A stretch of DNA of 64,000 bases, from NCBI GenBank assembly GCA_021647705.1, contig JAKIUF010000004.1, positions 1 to 64,000 on the forward strand, given 5' to 3'. Source of the stretch: Gammaproteobacteria bacterium. Lineage in GTDB: Bacteria; Pseudomonadota; Gammaproteobacteria; SZUA-152. The notes under the pieces were generated by a model. That model saw only the letters and a list, made by a program, of their open reading frames with translations, was not told the origin of the DNA and searched no databases. This document shows positions 1-38,187 of this stretch, in pieces (the stretch's first letter is position 1; each line of letters opens with the position of its first letter). A program made the position numbers and the translations under genes.

Positions 1-3000
1 AAAAGCTTCAGCGTTCGAGGCCTTGACATAAGCCTGCTGAGACCAGCTACCATCATTACGCCTAAACACATACACCGCTCCAGCCTGGCTTGCTGAATTA
101 TCCGCCTCACCAGTTCCATCAGTACTGATACCAATGGCACCACTGTTTTCATTGGTAGCTCCCACCGCCAAAGTATTACCATCACTACTCAAAGCCACTG
201 AGTCACCGAAAAAATCAAGATCCCCAGTATTAGAGGCCTTAACATAAGCCTGCTGGAGCCAGCTACCACCGTTGCGGCTAAACACATACACCGCCCCGGC
301 AGCTGATAGCGAACGATCATTCTCACCGGTTCCATCGGTGCTGATGCCAGTGGCATTGCTGCCTTCTTCTCTAGCTCCCACCGCGAGAGTATTACCATCA
401 CTACTCAAAGCCACTGAGAGGCCGAACCCACCTCCTCCGTAGAACTCAATCGACCCCTGAGCATTTGAAGCCTTCACATATCCAATGGCAGATAACACAC
501 CGCCCAGCGTGCTCACTTCGTTGGAGTCGCTGCACAGATTACTGTTACAGGCCTGCAATAAATACCGGGCACTACCCCAGTCCTGACGATACACAGCAAT
601 ATCCAGCGTGTGTGAGGTAGCGGTGATATCTGCACCTCGCTGGGTAAAGCCCGAGACACCATCAGGATTTTCCATCAATCGATAATAAGTGGCATTCTGC
701 ACCGCTGGCCAACTGAATTGCAGTTGCTTGATGCCGAAATCAAGCGAGAGCACTGCTGCACTCAGGTCAGCGGTATTCCCCTCCACAATTTTAAACTCAT
801 TGATGCTTGACCATGACCCTGAATATCCTGACGCCCCAACAATTTTTAATTTAACGTATCTGGCTTCCAGAGTAGCAAATGAAGATGAGATAGGTTGCGA
901 TGTAGACGTATTATTACTGTGATCCACAATGAGCGAACCAGCCACTTCATTTTCAACATCGGTCAGGCTTGTACTGGCATAAACATAATACTGATACGCT
1001 CTATTCTGATAAGTCCACAATTCAGTTCCTTCAATGGATTTGTTTTCGCCGTAGTCAATAATCACCCATTGCGGAAATCCACTTGCAGACCACCTGAAAT
1101 CATTGGAAGTATTTTCATCAATGACTTTAACAGCCTCATTACCCGCTTGCTCTGCACTTTGACTAATAACGACAACTTCGAGGGGGGTGTCGTCATCAAT
1201 GATCACAATGGTATCGGTAATGATGGCACCCAGTGTAGCGTTAGTCGGATTGTTTAAAGTAACAGTGATCGTTTCATTGCCTTCATCCAGAGCGTCATCA
1301 ATTGCCGTTAACGTTGTCTGAGCAAAGGTATTTCCAGCAGGGATAGTGATAACATCAAATTTGGAATAATCAACATCCGCAGTCGCTGTACCGGTGTAAA
1401 TCAAATCGACCATTACCGGAAATTCAGCGACTTCACTTAATGTCACGATCAAATCAGCCGTACCTGTGGCTTCGTCCATTGATGAGGAATTAATGCTCAA
1501 TGTGACGCTAGGAGAGCCAGACGTTTGAACCATTTCTATCTCATTGATACTCACCCAATTACCGCCATACCCGGATGCACCCACCACTTTCAGTTTGACA
1601 TAACGCCAAGGGTATCCACTCGTCGTATCGGAAATAGGCTGAGCTGATGAAGTGTTCGTACTTCGATCAATGATAAGCGCCGAATTGTCTTCATTTTGTA
1701 CTAAAGACAGATCGTCAGAAGCCCAGACAGTGTATTGATAAGCTCTGTTCTGATAAGTCCAAAGATTAATCGTGTTATACGGGACAGGAGTAACTCCCAT
1801 ATCAATAATCACCCACTGAGGAAACCCGTTTGCAGACCATCTGAAGTTATCGGAGGTGTTCCCATCAATCACGTTATCAGCCTCGTTGCCGGCTTGCTCC
1901 GCACTTTGGCTAATAACAATTCTGGAAGCGTCGTCGTCAGTGATCGTAATGGTATCGGTAATGATGGCACCCAGTGCAGCGTTGACCGGGTTGTTTAACG
2001 TGACAACGACAGTTTCATTACCTTCATCCAGAGTGTCAGCAATTGCCGTTAACGTCGCCTGAGCAAAGGTATTTCCAGCAGGAATGGTGATAACATCAGG
2101 TTTGGAATAATCAACACCTGCGATAGCTGTGCCGCTGTAAACCAGGTCAACCGTTACCGGAAGTGCTGCTGCTTCGTTTAACGTCACGGTCAAATCAGCG
2201 GTACCCGTGGCTTCACTCATTGATGAGGGATTAATATTCAGTGTGACACTGAGTTCCGAAGGAGAAGGCGGACAGGATGAAGGGGGAGGATTCCCAGGGT
2301 CAGGCATAATGCCGGAAGCCATTTTTACAACTTCGGTTCCCGCCAATAAAAAAGCGCCTACGCCAAAATCTCTTGTAGAATTTTCAGTAACAGGCTGGCT
2401 GGATTCTGGCCGATGCCCTGGCCCCTGAATATAACCCAGAAACCCACAGTCTTTAATTGCATCATTCACCATTCCATTCCATGCTTTTTCTACAATGGGC
2501 CTGTAAGTTGCGTCCTCCAGAATGCCGACATTAATGCCATAAGCAAGCGCATAAGTGAAAAAAGCGGTTCCACTGGTTTCCTTCCCACCAAAATGATTGG
2601 GATCATCCAGATTAACATTCCAAAAGCCATCGGGCCGCTGTCGATCCTTCAAAGAACCCGCCATGGAAATCAATGTCTGTTTGTATTCATCATAATGGCT
2701 ATCAGAGTTGGGTAATGCTTTCAACACTTTAACCATGGCAGCAATAACCCACCCATTACCTCTTGACCAATATATGTTTTTTCCAGCAGAGGTTAAATTG
2801 GGAGGGGTCTGGTTTTTATCTCTCCACCACAAAAAATCATTTTCGTTATTATTACCATTGTCAGAGAAGAGGCCATTGCCCCCTTCTGAATATTTTGTCC
2901 ATGCATATAAATCCCACATTTTGTCATGAGGTTCGGTGTCACCGTTAATATTGCCAAGTTCAACAAAGTTGGGCATTGCCATAAACATTGCATCTACCCA

Positions 3001-5896: not shown

Positions 5897-7243
5897 TCAT
5901 TTGTCAGCACTGGCATCCATTGCTCTTTCAGTATTGAGTTTCTCATCATTGCCATCCTCTTGCCCCAGCAAGGCATCAATACGTGCCCAGGCCAGCGCTG
6001 TGGCAAAATCTGCCTGCATGACACGATAACGCAATGCCGACATACTCACCATGGCGTCCCCCAAATCGCTCGCAACTTCGAGTTCATACTCAGCGCGCCG
6101 GAGGTCAAGATACAAATCTCGATATTCCTGATCGGATGCCAGACTTTGTTTTTCCACCTGCAAGGTATGCAGTTCGCTCCAGGTATCCAGCAGCTCTTGC
6201 CGCAATACACGCCGTTGTTGTTCCAAACTTGCCGTGACCTTGCGTAACTCAGCCCGACTCCGGGCCTGTAATGCAGCACTACGACCACCATCAAACAGTG
6301 GCACATCCAGAGAAACGCCTGCCCGCCAGTTATCGTTACCCCCAAATGTCCGGGTAAATTCAGAGACTTCCAGTCGCCCCAACAACACCGGATTATTATC
6401 TGCCCGCGCCAGACTTAATTGTGCCTTTGCGCTCGCTTGCTGTGCCATCAATGCCCGCAGTTGAGGATTACTTTGCTCCAGCTCAGTAAACCAATCATTC
6501 ACATCGTCCGGAAATTTTCGTGCTGTAAAACTCAATTGCGGGATGGATAATACCTCAGACAGCTGCCCCGGATAATTCAGTAAATCGGCAAGGCGTGCCC
6601 TCGTGGTACGTTGTGCCGCTTCACTTCGTGCCTGACGTAACCGGGATGCCTGAAACAAACTGCGTGTTTCCATAAGCTTGATATCTGACAACTGACCCAG
6701 CTCATTACGCTCACGCGCACGATCTGAGTTCACAAAAGTCATGGACATTTCTTCAGTGTCTCGCGCATAAGCCTGGTCAGCTAGCAACACATCAAAAAAG
6801 GCAGCCATAATTGAAATACGGTGGCGAGCGAAGGCGTCGAGATAAATCAAAGCACGCTGATTTCGTTCCGCCAGCGTTATGTTCTCTTTTGCTGTACTGC
6901 GTCCAAAGTCGTACAGGGACTTTTCCAGGGACAGTCTAATAAGGTGATCATCCCGAGACTCCTGGATAACAGGGCTTGGTGGCGAATCAACCCAGCGCAG
7001 GCGTCCAAAAAGTGTCACGTTAACACCCGTCTCTGCATCAACCCGTCGCTGCTCTGCTTTGGCTCGCGCCAATTCAGCAACCTCTATTTGCAGTTCAGGA
7101 TGATCCGCTGATGCCAGACCAAGCGAAAATTCAAGCGTCAGCGGCACTGGCAAGGAAACTTCATTTGCCCACAACGGGCATGATATTGAAAAAAATAACA
7201 GTAGAAATAATCTACGACAATACTGCACCGACAGCCCGTTCAT
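5897..7243 (-). CDS. TolC-family outer membrane channel
   Basis: A 448-residue outer membrane efflux protein. It has a signal peptide ending near ANEVSLPVP and two homologous halves, each with long coiled helices. One half contains DFGRSTAKENITLAERNQR, the other GVSLDVPLFDGGRSAALQARS, the typical beta-strand/helix boundary of TolC repeats. Family members form trimers that span the outer membrane and the periplasm and export drugs, metals or peptides. Its ATG overlaps the stop codon of the thioredoxin-like gene (ATGA), and the adaptor gene follows, so an operon is clear. Charged residues are abundant at the C-terminus (DEKLNTERAMDASADK), as in other TolC tails. Confidence 0.9.
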   Translation of the reverse strand: MNGLSVQYCRRLFLLLFFSISCPLWANEVSLPVPLTLEFSLGLASADHPELQIEVAELARAKAEQRRVDAETGVNVTLFGRLRWVDSPPSPVIQESRDDHLIRLSLEKSLYDFGRSTAKENITLAERNQRALIYLDAFARHRISIMAAFFDVLLADQAYARDTEEMSMTFVNSDRARERNELGQLSDIKLMETRSLFQASRLRQARSEAAQRTTRARLADLLNYPGQLSEVLSIPQLSFTARKFPDDVNDWFTELEQSNPQLRALMAQQASAKAQLSLARADNNPVLLGRLEVSEFTRTFGGNDNWRAGVSLDVPLFDGGRSAALQARSRAELRKVTASLEQQRRVLRQELLDTWSELHTLQVEKQSLASDQEYRDLYLDLRRAEYELEVASDLGDAMVSMSALRYRVMQADFATALAWARIDALLGQEDGNDEKLNTERAMDASADK

Positions 7244-7816: not shown

Positions 7817-8317
7817 TTATTGTGCGGTTTGCTGTGCAATAAAATCTGCAATCAGCTCTGCGGTAACCGGGCCGACTTGACGAGCAACCACTTCTCCTTC
7901 GGGTGAAACCAGATAAGTGGTCGGCAAACCAGGAATGGGGCCCAGCGCCGAGTCGGGGCCCGGCTTGCTTCGCAATACTGGAAAATTCATAAAATATTCT
8001 TCCGAAAACTGCTTCAGGGCATTGAGACTGATGTCTTCAAAATTAACCCCCAACACCACAGCATCTTTGTCTTTACGATCTTCGTGAAAGTCCACCAACT
8101 CTGGAATTTCTGTGAGGCAGGGAGGACACCAAGTCGCCCAGTAATTCACCACCACCCATTTGCCGCGATAATCCGACAAATTGTGCTTCGCGCCCTGAAC
8201 GTCCAACAGAGAGAACTCCACCGGCTCGGCCTGTGCGCTCAGCGCAAAAAATGCCGCAAAGCAAACGCTGAATAAAGTCCTACACTTGGGGGGGGAAATA
8301 ATCACAGCGCTGAACAC
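7817..8317 (-). CDS. TlpA/ResA-like thiol-disulfide oxidoreductase
   Basis: A 166-residue exported thioredoxin-fold protein. The signal peptide ends near ALSAQA, followed by the typical TlpA/ResA opening FSLLDVQGAKHNLSDYRGKW, the redox site WCPPC in NYWATWCPPCLTEIPEL, a central insert (FSEEYFMNFPVL) and the cis-Pro loop GLPTTYLVSPEGEV. Members reduce disulfides in apocytochromes or other periplasmic proteins. It heads the operon. The GTG at 8317 sits directly against a GAGGAG ribosome site, so the GTG at 8305 (11 bases away) may be the real start; both keep the signal peptide. No cytochrome maturation genes lie nearby. Confidence 0.88.
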   Translation of the reverse strand: MFSAVIISPPKCRTLFSVCFAAFFALSAQAEPVEFSLLDVQGAKHNLSDYRGKWVVVNYWATWCPPCLTEIPELVDFHEDRKDKDAVVLGVNFEDISLNALKQFSEEYFMNFPVLRSKPGPDSALGPIPGLPTTYLVSPEGEVVARQVGPVTAELIADFIAQQTAQ

Positions 8318-34237: not shown

Positions 34238-34813
34238 TTAGTGACGCCGCTGACGGTGTATTTCCCGACGCATTTCCTGTCGTTGCTGTCGGTTGATTTG
34301 TCGACGTTCCATCACCGCACGCCGTTGCGCTGGTGACATCTTTTGCCAGCGTTCCCGCAGAGCTGCACGCCGTGCAGGAGGTAAATTGCGGAAACCACGA
34401 AACCGTGCGCGCAATCGCTTACGCTCGGCTGGTGGCAGCGACATAAAATGTTCAAAACGATTCCGCACCCGTTGGCGTTTTTCCGGTGGCAATTTCTGCC
34501 AACGGGCAAAACGTTTTTGGGCCCGGGTCCGTTGCTCTGGTGTTAGCTGTGCCCAGCGTTTAATACCTTTGCGCAAGCGTTGCTGACGACCCGCTGGCAA
34601 GCCTTCCCAGTTTTTTGCAAATGGTGCCAGCAGAGTTTGTTCTTCAACACTCAGTGAGCGCCAGGCAACCCCTTTGCCGTTACCTTTAGCAACAGTGGTC
34701 TGCTCTGGATTTAGCAATGATTCAGTATCGCTGGCCTGTGACAGCAGCGGGCTACACACTAACAATAAACATAGGATCAACCAGCCACTGTATTTCAATT
34801 TTTTACTGTGCAT
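34238..34813 (-). CDS. DUF3106 family protein, Arg-rich
   Basis: A 191-residue exported protein from the ATG at 34813, with signal peptide GWLILCLLLVCSPLLSQA. The mature part is a chain of helices with the repeated DUF3106 pattern W..L.PEQR: RWAQLTPEQRTRAQKRFARW, then WQKLPPEKRQRVRNRF, LPPAERKRLRARFRGF and LPPARRAALRERW. It ends in a very basic tail rich in Arg, Gln and His. The start overlaps the small upstream gene by 11 bases. It is the last gene of an ECF sigma cluster. The strongly positive, helical character may suit binding to envelope polyanions or to a metal-stress-type partner; the function is unknown. Confidence 0.8.
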   Translation of the reverse strand: MHSKKLKYSGWLILCLLLVCSPLLSQASDTESLLNPEQTTVAKGNGKGVAWRSLSVEEQTLLAPFAKNWEGLPAGRQQRLRKGIKRWAQLTPEQRTRAQKRFARWQKLPPEKRQRVRNRFEHFMSLPPAERKRLRARFRGFRNLPPARRAALRERWQKMSPAQRRAVMERRQINRQQRQEMRREIHRQRRH

Positions 34814-35012
34814 CTTGTGCTTCCTCAACTTTCGCGGTTTGAGCTTCCGCGTCCAACGCATCCAGGTTCTGCATAAAGTCCAGCGGGTCTTGCCATTCGT
34901 TTTCACTGATTTCCCAGTCGCCGAGAAATTCCAGTAACTCAAGACTGGGAGCTTCCTCGGCAACCACAAAGCATGGTACACACAGCGCACACAGAATGAG
35001 CGCGCGGTTCAC
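34803..35012 (-). CDS. Small acidic secreted protein in the ECF cluster
   Basis: A 69-residue protein from the GTG at 35012, 4 bases after the stop of the previous gene; ATG codons at 35045, 35042 and 35036 give longer versions that overlap that gene. A signal peptide (ALILCALCVPCFVVA) precedes an acidic, helical mature part with LELLEFLGDWEISENEWQDP. That motif resembles the end of the upstream anti-sigma-like protein (LEFYEELDFYLWLDD). No family is recognised. Its place between an anti-sigma-like gene and DUF3106 is typical of such clusters, where a small acidic partner pairs with the basic DUF3106 protein. Confidence 0.65.
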   Translation of the reverse strand: MNRALILCALCVPCFVVAEEAPSLELLEFLGDWEISENEWQDPLDFMQNLDALDAEAQTAKVEEAQDAQ

Positions 35013-35016
35013 ACAC

Positions 35017-35391
35017 TCACCCTGCTTCTTGTTCATTTTCATCATCTAACCATAAGTAGAAATCAAGCTCTTCATAAAACTCCAGGGATTCAGCATCACC
35101 CAGTAGCGCAAGGTCTTCCAGCGGTGGCAATTGTGTACCTAGATCATGCTCCGGTGGTGTCAACCACAAGGATACAGTCAATACCGCTACGGTAGCCGCT
35201 GTAGCCAACCCACCCACGGGCAACAACCAAGCCGGACGCTTTTCACTGACAGCCGGTTTCCCCGCCAAAAGGGCTTCGCGACGCACTCGGCGTAAATCCC
35301 ATAGCGTGGCATCGTCCAACCCGTCCACCGCCTGATTCAGTGTGGACTTTGACATTTTTAGTAAACGGTCTGTGTCTTCGGGTTTATTCAC
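35017..35391 (-). CDS. Membrane-anchored anti-sigma-like protein (DUF3619-like)
   Basis: A 124-residue protein: a soluble N-terminus (about 1-52, with LNQAVDGLDDATLWDLRRVR), one membrane segment (LLPVGGLATAATVAVLTVSLWL) and an acidic C-terminus outside. It lacks the zinc motif of the other anti-sigma factor. The GTG start overlaps the ECF sigma stop codon (GTGA), so the pair is translated together, as is usual for a sigma factor and its inhibitor. The order sigma factor, DUF3619-like, small protein, DUF3106 occurs in other proteobacteria, which supports the assignment. Confidence 0.75.
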   Translation of the reverse strand: MNKPEDTDRLLKMSKSTLNQAVDGLDDATLWDLRRVRREALLAGKPAVSEKRPAWLLPVGGLATAATVAVLTVSLWLTPPEHDLGTQLPPLEDLALLGDAESLEFYEELDFYLWLDDENEQEAG

Positions 35392-36053
35392 GCTTCATAC
35401 TCCTGCCAATGATCCTGTAATTGTGTACGCAACGCTTTCAGCGCGCGCGAAAAATGGGTTTTCACACTGCCTTCACCACAGCCTATGGCCTGTGCCGTGT
35501 CACGTACGCTGAGACCTTCCCACTGGCGCAACAAAAACACCTGTTGTTGGCGCAGAGGCAAACGGTGCAGTGCGGCATCCAGCTGCCTGATGGCCTGCTG
35601 TTGCTGCAACTGCGCACTAGGCTCTGGTTCCGCTGTTGCAAAATGGGTTTCGATGGGATCCTCTTCCGCCGCCGTTTCACAACCCTGATCCCGTTGATTT
35701 TTTTGACCTAAAAAAAACCGGAACCGGTTGCGTACCGCAGCACGCCGATACCAATCGCGAATCACACTTTGCACAATGCGGTGAAATAATGGCCCCCACT
35801 GCTCGGCATCGCGGTCGGCATAGCGTTTAGCCAGACGCAACATGGAATCCTGCACGATATCCAGCGCATCCTCGTGGTTACTGGTGGCAATTATCGCCAT
35901 ACGATATGCCCGCCGTTCCACGCTTGCGAGGAATTGATCCAATGCTGCCGAGTTGTCCAGCGCCTCTCTCCTGCATGGTCTATGTCCTGTGGTTTTGATT
36001 CTGGTCAGCCATGAGTCACTTTGTCCAGTGTTCCACGGTGAAAAATTCCACAA
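35388..36053 (-). CDS. ECF-type sigma factor, second system
   Basis: A 221-codon frame encoding an ECF sigma factor. Region 2 is RAYRMAIIATSNHEDALDIVQDSMLRLAKRY and region 4 is LRQQQVFLLRQWEGLSVRDTAQAIGCGEGSVKTHFSRALKALR. A linker rich in Glu and Gln joins them. The TTG start at 36053 is uncertain: the first 30 residues do not look like the family, and a CTG near 35963 preceded by AGGAGAGAGG is another possibility. It is 30 residues longer than the ECF factor at 15 kb and clearly a different subgroup. Confidence 0.82.
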   Translation of the reverse strand: MWNFSPWNTGQSDSWLTRIKTTGHRPCRREALDNSAALDQFLASVERRAYRMAIIATSNHEDALDIVQDSMLRLAKRYADRDAEQWGPLFHRIVQSVIRDWYRRAAVRNRFRFFLGQKNQRDQGCETAAEEDPIETHFATAEPEPSAQLQQQQAIRQLDAALHRLPLRQQQVFLLRQWEGLSVRDTAQAIGCGEGSVKTHFSRALKALRTQLQDHWQEYEA

Positions 36054-36249: not shown

Positions 36250-36381
36250 AAAAAAAACCGCACTGACAAGAAGAAAACAGTGCGGTTGGGTTCAAACAAA
36301 ATAGGGGGTTTGTTTGGAAGTGCGCCTAATTTAGCAAGACTTTCTTTTCACTGGAAGTGATATTTATTTATATTGATATCT
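36250..36381 (-). ncRNA. Candidate small RNA 2 with C-rich loop
   Basis: About 130 nt from a predicted start near 36381 to a strong terminator. On the minus strand there is a hairpin, CAAACAAA/TTTGTTTG (36293-36316), with loop ATAGGGGG read as CCCCCTAT. The terminator stem is AACCGCACTG/CAGTGCGGTT (36256-36287), followed by eight T. It has the same order and motifs as the unit at 36456-36575. It lies in a gene-free gap. Transcription is predicted, not shown. Confidence 0.5.
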
Positions 36382-36387
36382 CATATT

Positions 36388-36417
36388 AATATAATCTGTT
36401 TTTCCATAATCCTGCAA
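36388..36417 (-). promoter_or_regulatory. Predicted promoter of candidate small RNA 2
   Basis: On the minus strand TTGCAG (36417-36412) and TATATT (36393-36388) are separated by 18 bases, close to a sigma-70 promoter. It lies downstream of the first terminator, so RNA 2 would have its own start. Confidence 0.4.
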
Positions 36418-36455
36418 AAGCAATGCAAGGCCATGCAAATCTAAAAAATCCAGGC

Positions 36456-36575
36456 AAAAAAAACCGCTACCAAGGGAGGGGGAGGTAGCGGCCGGAACTC
36501 TCAAAACGCTCAAACAACCTGGAGGGGGTAACTTGTTTGAACCACTTAAGAAGTAAACAGACTTTACTTCATACA
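36456..36575 (-). ncRNA. Candidate small RNA 1 with two C-rich loops
   Basis: On the minus strand a 5' hairpin GAAGTAAA/TTTACTTC (36550-36570) is followed by TCAAACAA/TTGTTTGA (36510-36540), whose 15-base loop contains CCCCCTCC. The terminator CCGCTACC/GGTAGCGG (36464-36491) has a second loop containing CCCCCTCCC and is followed by eight T. It also ends the gpmI transcript. The 5' end is not defined; it may come from its own promoter or from processing of the gpmI mRNA. Confidence 0.5.
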
Positions 36576-36648
36576 ACTTATCGCTGGAACTTATTTATTT
36601 CTATTTGATAATCTATAAATAAGATAAGCAATTAACATAAATCAGAAT

Positions 36649-38187
36649 TCAGCGGGAAACCGGTTTCAACAACAATGAGCGCCCCGTCATTGCATCTGGC
36701 ACAGGTAATCCCAGCAGGTACAACACGGTGGGGGCAATGGAGCTCAGACCTGCACCGATAGTGAGCTGCCATGGGGTTTCATCCAGAATCAGGCACGGCA
36801 CAGGGTAAACGGTGTGCTGGGTTTGCGCCTCGCCACTGATCGGGTCCACCATTTCTTCACAGTTACCATGGTCAGCAGTAAGCAACACCGACCAGTTGGC
36901 TGCACACGCAGCATCCAGCACACGACCAACTTCACGGTCCAGCGTTTCCACTGCGGTGATCGCAGCAGCGGCAATACCACTGTGTCCTACCATATCGCCA
37001 TTAGCAAAGTTCACCACAATAAAAGCATAGTCTTCACTGTCCATGGCAGTGATAACGGTATCAGCAACCTTGTCAGCACTCATCTCCGGTTGCAGGTCGT
37101 AGGTAGCCACTTTGGGTGAATCAATGATGCCTCGTTCTTCACCTGCAAAGGCATCACCCCTGCCACCATTCAGAAAATAAGTCACATGCGCGTATTTTTC
37201 AGTTTCAGCGCAATGAAACTGGCGTAGGCCCGCACAACTCACCACTTCCGCCAAAGTGGTGCGTGGCCGCTCCTGACGAAAAGTGAAAGGCAGATGAAAC
37301 CATTCATCATATTCAGTCATGCAGGTGACATTAAGCGGGCTGAAATCGCCCCGATCAAATTGGGTAAACTCAGGCCGATACAGCGCAGAGCTCAGTTGTC
37401 GTGCCCGGTCCTTGCGAAAGTTAAAAAATACCACCGCATCGCCCCATTGGGCGGGTTCACCACCATTGATGACGGTGGGTAAAATAAACTCATCATTAGT
37501 ATCCGCTGCGTAAGCCGCATCGATAGCAGCTTTGGCAGTGTCGGCACTCTCCCCTTTCGCACACACAATGGCCTGCCAGGCCTTCTCAATGCGCTCCCAG
37601 CGATTATCACGATCCATCGCGTAATAACGACCGCACACCGTGGCGATATTGCCTCCGGCCGCCTGCAAAGCCGGTTCAATTTTTCGTAAATAGCGCAATG
37701 CGGACCTGGGTGGAGTGTCGCGACCATCAGTAAACATATGCAATACCGGACGCACACCATTGCGACGACACAATTCCACCAGCGCCAGCAAGTGTGAAAT
37801 ATTGCTGTGTACACCGCCATCCGACACCAAACCCATCAAATGTAACGGGCGCTCGCTGTTGCGTGCAGATTCAACAGCCGCAATAAGCGCGGCATTATTA
37901 AAAAAGCTGGCGTCACTGATGGATTCATCAATACGCACCAAGTCCTGTTGCACAATGTCGCCACAACCGATGGTGAGGTGCCCCACCTCTGAATTACCCA
38001 TTTGCCCATCGGGTAATCCCACAGCGTTGCCAGAGGCTTGCAACAAGGTATGTGGATAACGGGAAAAGTAGTGGTCAAGGCGTGGTGTATTCGCCTGGGC
38101 CACGGCATTGTTCAAGTTACTGGGGTTAGTCCCAAAGCCATCAAGGATGACCAGCAGCACCGGTCGGCGGGGAGATTTTTCGCTCAT
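36649..38187 (-). CDS. gpmI: 2,3-bisphosphoglycerate-independent phosphoglycerate mutase
   Basis: A 512-residue enzyme of normal length (about 510). It shows the alkaline-phosphatase-fold start PVLLVILDGFG, the phospho-Ser site GQMGNSEVGH (Ser66), FTDGRDTPP, NFRKDRARQLS, and the manganese-binding NFANGDMVGHSG and LTADHGNCEEM. It interconverts 3- and 2-phosphoglycerate in glycolysis and gluconeogenesis. Two tandem terminator hairpins and the candidate small RNAs lie beyond its stop codon. The gene is alone on its transcript. Confidence 0.97.
   Translation of the reverse strand: MSEKSPRRPVLLVILDGFGTNPSNLNNAVAQANTPRLDHYFSRYPHTLLQASGNAVGLPDGQMGNSEVGHLTIGCGDIVQQDLVRIDESISDASFFNNAALIAAVESARNSERPLHLMGLVSDGGVHSNISHLLALVELCRRNGVRPVLHMFTDGRDTPPRSALRYLRKIEPALQAAGGNIATVCGRYYAMDRDNRWERIEKAWQAIVCAKGESADTAKAAIDAAYAADTNDEFILPTVINGGEPAQWGDAVVFFNFRKDRARQLSSALYRPEFTQFDRGDFSPLNVTCMTEYDEWFHLPFTFRQERPRTTLAEVVSCAGLRQFHCAETEKYAHVTYFLNGGRGDAFAGEERGIIDSPKVATYDLQPEMSADKVADTVITAMDSEDYAFIVVNFANGDMVGHSGIAAAAITAVETLDREVGRVLDAACAANWSVLLTADHGNCEEMVDPISGEAQTQHTVYPVPCLILDETPWQLTIGAGLSSIAPTVLYLLGLPVPDAMTGRSLLLKPVSR

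Follow-up and report, generated by a model that had tools for sequence, protein, structure and literature searches.

A tandem pair of C-rich-loop units behind gpmI: very likely small RNA genes, apparently restricted to one bacterial family

Behind gpmI (36649-38187; a BPG-independent phosphoglycerate mutase by Pfam), in a 64,000-nucleotide window from a Gammaproteobacteria bacterium, a class to which the best named gpmI relatives also point, lie two minus-strand units, each made of a hairpin with a C-rich loop and a rho-independent terminator. Are these units small RNA (sRNA) genes, and if so, what might their loops do? A sequence-only reading of this DNA had described the two hairpins, the two terminators and a second C-rich loop within the terminator of unit 1, and all of these are present. 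The unit 1 hairpin is GTTCAAACAAGTTACCCCCTCCAGGTTGTTTGAGC, with stem arms GTTCAAACAAG and TTGTTTGAGC, and the unit 2 hairpin is CAAACAAACCCCCTATTTTGTTTG. Both terminators carry T8 tails, with ends at 36456 (unit 1) and 36250 (unit 2), and the two units share about 62% identity over aligned bases. The features of the locus are as follows:

36456-36554, minus strand: unit 1, predicted 99-nt sRNA (5' end placed by its 6-nt distance from the -10 box, 3' end by the T run)
36508-36542, minus strand: unit 1 hairpin, C-rich loop CCCCCTCC at 36521-36528, stem kept in relatives
36456-36493, minus strand: unit 1 rho-independent terminator, loop CTCCCCCTCCCT at 36472-36483
36561-36566, minus strand: unit 1 -10 box TAAAGT
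36581-36589, minus strand: unit 1 -35 block TTCCAGCGA, 17 bp from the -10 box
36590-36627, minus strand: unit 1 upstream element, palindrome-like TTATCTT-N5-TAGATTA (36609-36627) plus A-rich block TCAAATAGAAATAAATAAG; putative regulator site and UP element
36250-36321, minus strand: unit 2, predicted 72-nt sRNA starting ACUUCCAAACAAACCCCCUAUUUUGUUUGAACCC, 5' end predicted
36293-36316, minus strand: unit 2 hairpin, almost invariant loop CCCCCTA(T) at 36301-36308
36250-36287, minus strand: unit 2 rho-independent terminator, compensatory stem changes in relatives
36328-36336, minus strand: unit 2 extended -10 box TTGC-TAAATT (hexamer at 36328-36333)
36348-36356, minus strand: unit 2 -35 block TTCCAGTGA, 17 bp from the -10 box
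36357-36394, minus strand: unit 2 upstream element, A/T-rich (TTATATTAATATGAGATAT then CAATATAAATAAATATCAC), putatively functional

The starts given here differ from those first proposed. The sequence-only reading had named a promoter, TTGCAG-18-TATATT, and 5' ends at 36381 and 36575. That promoter is in the window, but neither the nearest relative (L002) nor the others have kept it, and the conserved promoters, TTCCAG-17-TAAATT for unit 2 (36356-36328) and TTCCAG-17-TAAAGT for unit 1 (36589-36561), predict 5' ends at 36321 and 36554 instead. An extra 5' stem that the longer version of unit 1 would contain (GAAGTAAA..TTTACTTC) coincides in part with the conserved -10 box, and relatives do not preserve its pairing; the stem is therefore probably outside the RNA. 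Compared with dinucleotide shuffles, the RNAs predicted from the conserved promoters fold far more stably, with z = -7.3 (36321-36250) and z = -4.6 (36554-36456). A generic scan for promoters and terminators missed both terminators, whose loops are longer than the limit of the scan, and also both conserved promoters, whose -35 blocks are non-consensus.

The same promoter design recurs across 28 distinct units: a TTCC-like -35 block, 17 bp, a -10 box of the form TA-N3-T, six bases, and then usually ACTTC or ACTC. The -35 block is TTCC in most, TTTC, TTAC or TTCT in a few, and TTTT in genus g3; the scan used for these units favoured 17-bp spacing, and the blocks are also visible in the alignments. 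Upstream of unit 1, the palindrome-like block TTATCTT-N5-NAGATWA begins 38 bp before TTCC. Anchored on TTCC, this pattern was found at unit 1 only, in five genomes of the genus, and the reversed pattern with the same anchor gave zero matches in the same search; a similar block stands at the same distance at unit 2 of two genomes, G004 and G007. Given the shared promoter design and upstream block, the siblings are probably co-regulated. A search for other promoters of the same design yielded one extra match common to G000, G004 and G007, which sits inside a coding gene and was rejected.

Most genomes of the same genus contain the region, as a DNA search showed. Two helices emerged from an alignment of 17 canonical units, and a covariance model built from this alignment identified canonical units (E ≤ 1e-12) in 11 of the 12 genomes of genus g1 and in six of the seven of genus g3. 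Since the training units are counted among these matches, we place the weight of the evidence on covariation, promoter and position rather than on E-values. In the 17-unit alignment, both partners have changed in six pairs of the terminator helix. The covariation score reaches 0.357, where shuffles give 0.164 ± 0.018 and slid controls never exceed 0.131. The loop ACCCCCUA is nearly invariant; in the unit 1 hairpin of relatives, the loop is always C/U-rich and variable in sequence. In genera g2, g4 and g6 the hairpin takes a variant form, ACAAACATAACCCATGCCCCCAAATATGTTTGT; it has a terminator of its own, and the promoter design is unchanged. Mean pairwise identity over 12 copies of unit 2 rises from 0.28 far upstream to 0.66 in the A/T-rich block and 0.77 in the -35 block, runs through 0.53 in the spacer, 0.84 in the -10 box and 0.46 in the discriminator, and reaches 0.88 in the 5' end and hairpin and 0.96 in the loop, before falling to 0.52 in the terminator, where pairing is nonetheless kept, and 0.37 downstream. 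This is the profile expected for a short independent transcription unit. Judged from this sequence evidence, the locus very likely holds two sRNA genes, and we infer that both are transcribed. The earlier proposal of two sibling sRNA genes gains strong support from conservation, covariation and a shared promoter module, and the sequence part of its own refuting condition, a lack of conserved loops and stems in relatives, did not hold.

How might such RNAs act? We think it probable that they are two paralogous trans-acting sRNA genes, each with its own promoter and terminator, whose C-rich loops repress through G-rich ribosome-binding sites. Both would answer to a single regulator through the upstream and -35 blocks that they share. 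Unit 2 would then present an almost invariant CCCCCU, and unit 1 would present CCCCCUCC together with CUCCCCCUCCCU in its terminator loop; translation would be blocked where the loops base-pair with G-rich stretches in or close to ribosome-binding sites. Of the two, unit 1 may act as the more general anti-Shine-Dalgarno RNA, and unit 2 may be selective for runs of four or five G. Pairing of C-rich loops with G-rich sequence near translation starts has been tested for sX13 (PMC3771888), for LhrC (PMC4132741) and for NmsR (PMC5362039). Hfq is encoded in all 24 family genomes; it may be dispensable, as has been reported for sX13.

We performed target prediction on 1.6 Mb, or 36% of the genome, with 1291 guessed genes. 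Within this scope, the unit 1 loop formed 33 strong pairings at start regions against 16 inside genes (-16 kcal/mol), and the unit 2 loop showed no start-region preference (16 against 14 at -14 kcal/mol), several shuffled loops outdoing it. No conserved target emerged from the same 36% of the genome. Two of the top candidates by duplex energy were followed, genes which we take, from reading rather than from a profile, to be adk and an ActD-like gene; their sites are loosely G-rich in relatives and not strictly conserved. An 11-base loop complement was also tried as a target motif, and 12 of its 15 matches were the sRNA genes themselves. The earlier suggestion that the loops pair with Shine-Dalgarno sequences is plausible by analogy with NmsR, sX13 and LhrC, but the prediction gave it no conserved target.

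These results leave some room for other roles. It is conceivable, though doubtful, that the frozen CCCCCU loop of unit 2, carried by a weak A/U-rich stem, serves one specific partner outside ribosome-binding sites, be it a protein, a G-rich RNA or a single regulator mRNA. Unit 1 would then have diverged into a general anti-Shine-Dalgarno RNA, and both, as a new sRNA family, would stand under one dedicated promoter design and its regulator. The exposed C-rich loops might also be decoys: instead of pairing with many mRNAs, they would bind and titrate a G-rich regulatory RNA or an RNA-binding protein. A loop that is almost invariant in unit 2, yet lacks a preference for translation starts, would fit such decoys, as would the lack of an extended loop complement elsewhere; we nevertheless consider them unlikely, as mRNA repression by C-rich loops is a tested mechanism in three unrelated systems, the unit 1 loop does prefer start regions, and no candidate protein was found.

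At the sequence level, the pair shows two features of sibling C-rich-loop sRNAs such as NmsR, namely tandem homologous units with promoter and terminator and conserved single-stranded C-rich loops. NmsRA and NmsRB of Neisseria meningitidis are likewise tandem sibling sRNAs with their own promoters, and their UC-rich single-stranded regions and loops are completely conserved anti-Shine-Dalgarno sites (PMC5362039), which the C-rich loops here may resemble; the NmsRs, however, have three stem-loops and about 70% mutual identity, whereas the units at the gpmI locus have two stem-loops and about 62%, and they differ in sequence and in class of bacteria. In Xanthomonas, sX13 (RF02232; PMC3771888) is a structured RNA that sets C-rich loops of at least four C against G-rich motifs near translation starts, but it has three stem-loops, sits at the polA locus and has a model that neither unit matches. 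The multicopy LhrC1-5 of Listeria (RF00616; PMC4132741) carry CU-rich motifs in the hairpin loop and the terminator loop, comparable to unit 1; they differ in using a CUCCC motif plus a U run, not CCCCC, and in belonging to Firmicutes. ErsA, or Pseudomon-1 (RF01719), and anti-hemB (RF02837) are C-rich-loop sRNAs of gamma- and betaproteobacteria that match neither unit and instead resemble an RNA at the polA locus elsewhere in the source genome. By analogy, the gpmI-locus pair probably works like such RNAs, yet it lies outside their families.

Within the window, every Rfam family stays below its cut-off. Against LhrC, unit 2 scores 21.7 bits (E = 1.4; cut-off 110), neither unit matches sX13, ErsA or anti-hemB up to E = 2, and the units of relatives strengthen neither this match nor that to ar14 (RF02344). 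The ar14 RNA of Alphaproteobacteria deserves a closer look, as the two units could be distant members, by descent, of ar14 or of the polA-locus C-rich RNAs (ErsA, sX13, anti-hemB). Unit 1 aligns end to end with the full ar14 model, C/U-rich loops in register, at 28.6 bits (E = 0.0033 in 1 kb), but this is far under the cut-off of 58.8; among relatives only L006 matches, at 25.9 bits. The first ar14 stem would fall on the -10 of the unit 1 promoter, and A/U-rich stems are a further difference. As for the polA-locus RNAs, sX13, ErsA and Spot 42 share a position next to polA, whereas the units here lie behind gpmI and the polA locus of the source genome holds a separate RNA. C-rich loops converge easily, and no intermediates have so far appeared between family f1 and other groups, so common descent strikes us as improbable. 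Outside family f1, the covariance model (R1) found no convincing member in 271 sampled genomes of the class; those weak matches that we inspected were mostly polA-type three-hairpin RNAs or GC-rich terminators. The 17 loci tested at gpmI relatives in other genomes (best 62% identity) held no unit, and a literature search of titles and abstracts returned no sRNA behind gpmI. We take the pair to be real and family-restricted, apparently undescribed before, and very likely sRNA genes of a known functional kind.

The neighbourhood of the units varies within the family. In the window, an operon at 34238-36053 (minus strand), encoding an ECF-type sigma factor, a 124-aa ORF without a Pfam match and a DUF3106 protein, adjoins the sRNAs, and this operon and gpmI are conserved neighbours in much of genus g1. 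A spermidine-synthase-like gene takes this place in g3 and in G006, and others elsewhere. Could the hairpins then be cis elements, either attenuator or leader hairpins of the downstream sigma operon or structures of the gpmI 3' end? In much of the genus the units do sit between gpmI and the sigma gene on the same strand. Each unit, however, has its own conserved promoter and terminator, the neighbours are different in g3, G001 and G006 and in g2, g4 and g6, and the sigma gene lies about 200 nt beyond the last terminator, which makes a cis role very improbable.

The tandem arrangement of the two sRNA genes is found in much of the genus; across the family, single copies are usual. The source genome has one copy of each unit. 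G010 and G011 have two canonical units each, G011 with a third copy elsewhere, and G009 has a single copy. Because the third copy in G011 and the single copy in G009 combine a unit-1-like promoter with a unit-2-like hairpin, the sequences suggest that the unit 1 loop drifted after duplication and that the unit 2 loop stayed frozen. In G004, an insert of about 190 bases with inverted ends AACCTAAATTAATCAGTTAAACC / GGTTTAACTGATTAATTTAGGGTT (L003, between 1137 and 1514), probably a small mobile element, parts the two units. That the units themselves are a mobile repeat or a small coding gene rather than RNA genes is hardly credible: a 70-codon ORF does cross unit 1, but each unit is single-copy in the genome, the stem carries compensatory changes, the unit 1 loops differ by indels of 1-2 bases between relatives, and unit 2 lacks a start codon with a ribosome site.

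A family-wide sRNA absent from Rfam joins the scattered C-rich-loop RNAs NmsR, sX13, ErsA, LhrC and ar14. Both the sRNA pair and a C-rich RNA at the polA locus are present in the source genome, which prompts the question how G-rich targets are divided among several RNAs of this kind; the presence of one frozen and one drifting loop in the pair makes this question testable. The polA-locus RNA (L200:12403-12507; G000:C25:17403-17507, plus strand) has three hairpins and resembles anti-hemB, ErsA and sX13 below Rfam cut-offs; its flanking genes are presumably polA and engB. Matches to RF02837 at E ≤ 0.003 occur in all 24 family genomes, some possibly by chance. In a genome from another family of the class, four C-rich RNAs with three hairpins each, similar to sX13 and anti-hemB, lie in tandem on the minus strand of L143 (868-1604):

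868-971, minus strand: three-hairpin RNA
1084-1180, minus strand: three-hairpin RNA
1287-1387, minus strand: three-hairpin RNA
1501-1604, minus strand: three-hairpin RNA

Finally, g3 genomes carry another terminator RNA rich in C and U (GGCAACTCCTCCCCTCCC...), which lies about 4.7 kb away from the canonical unit, on the minus strand of L275 near 6434-6700 and of L282 near 7899-8180.
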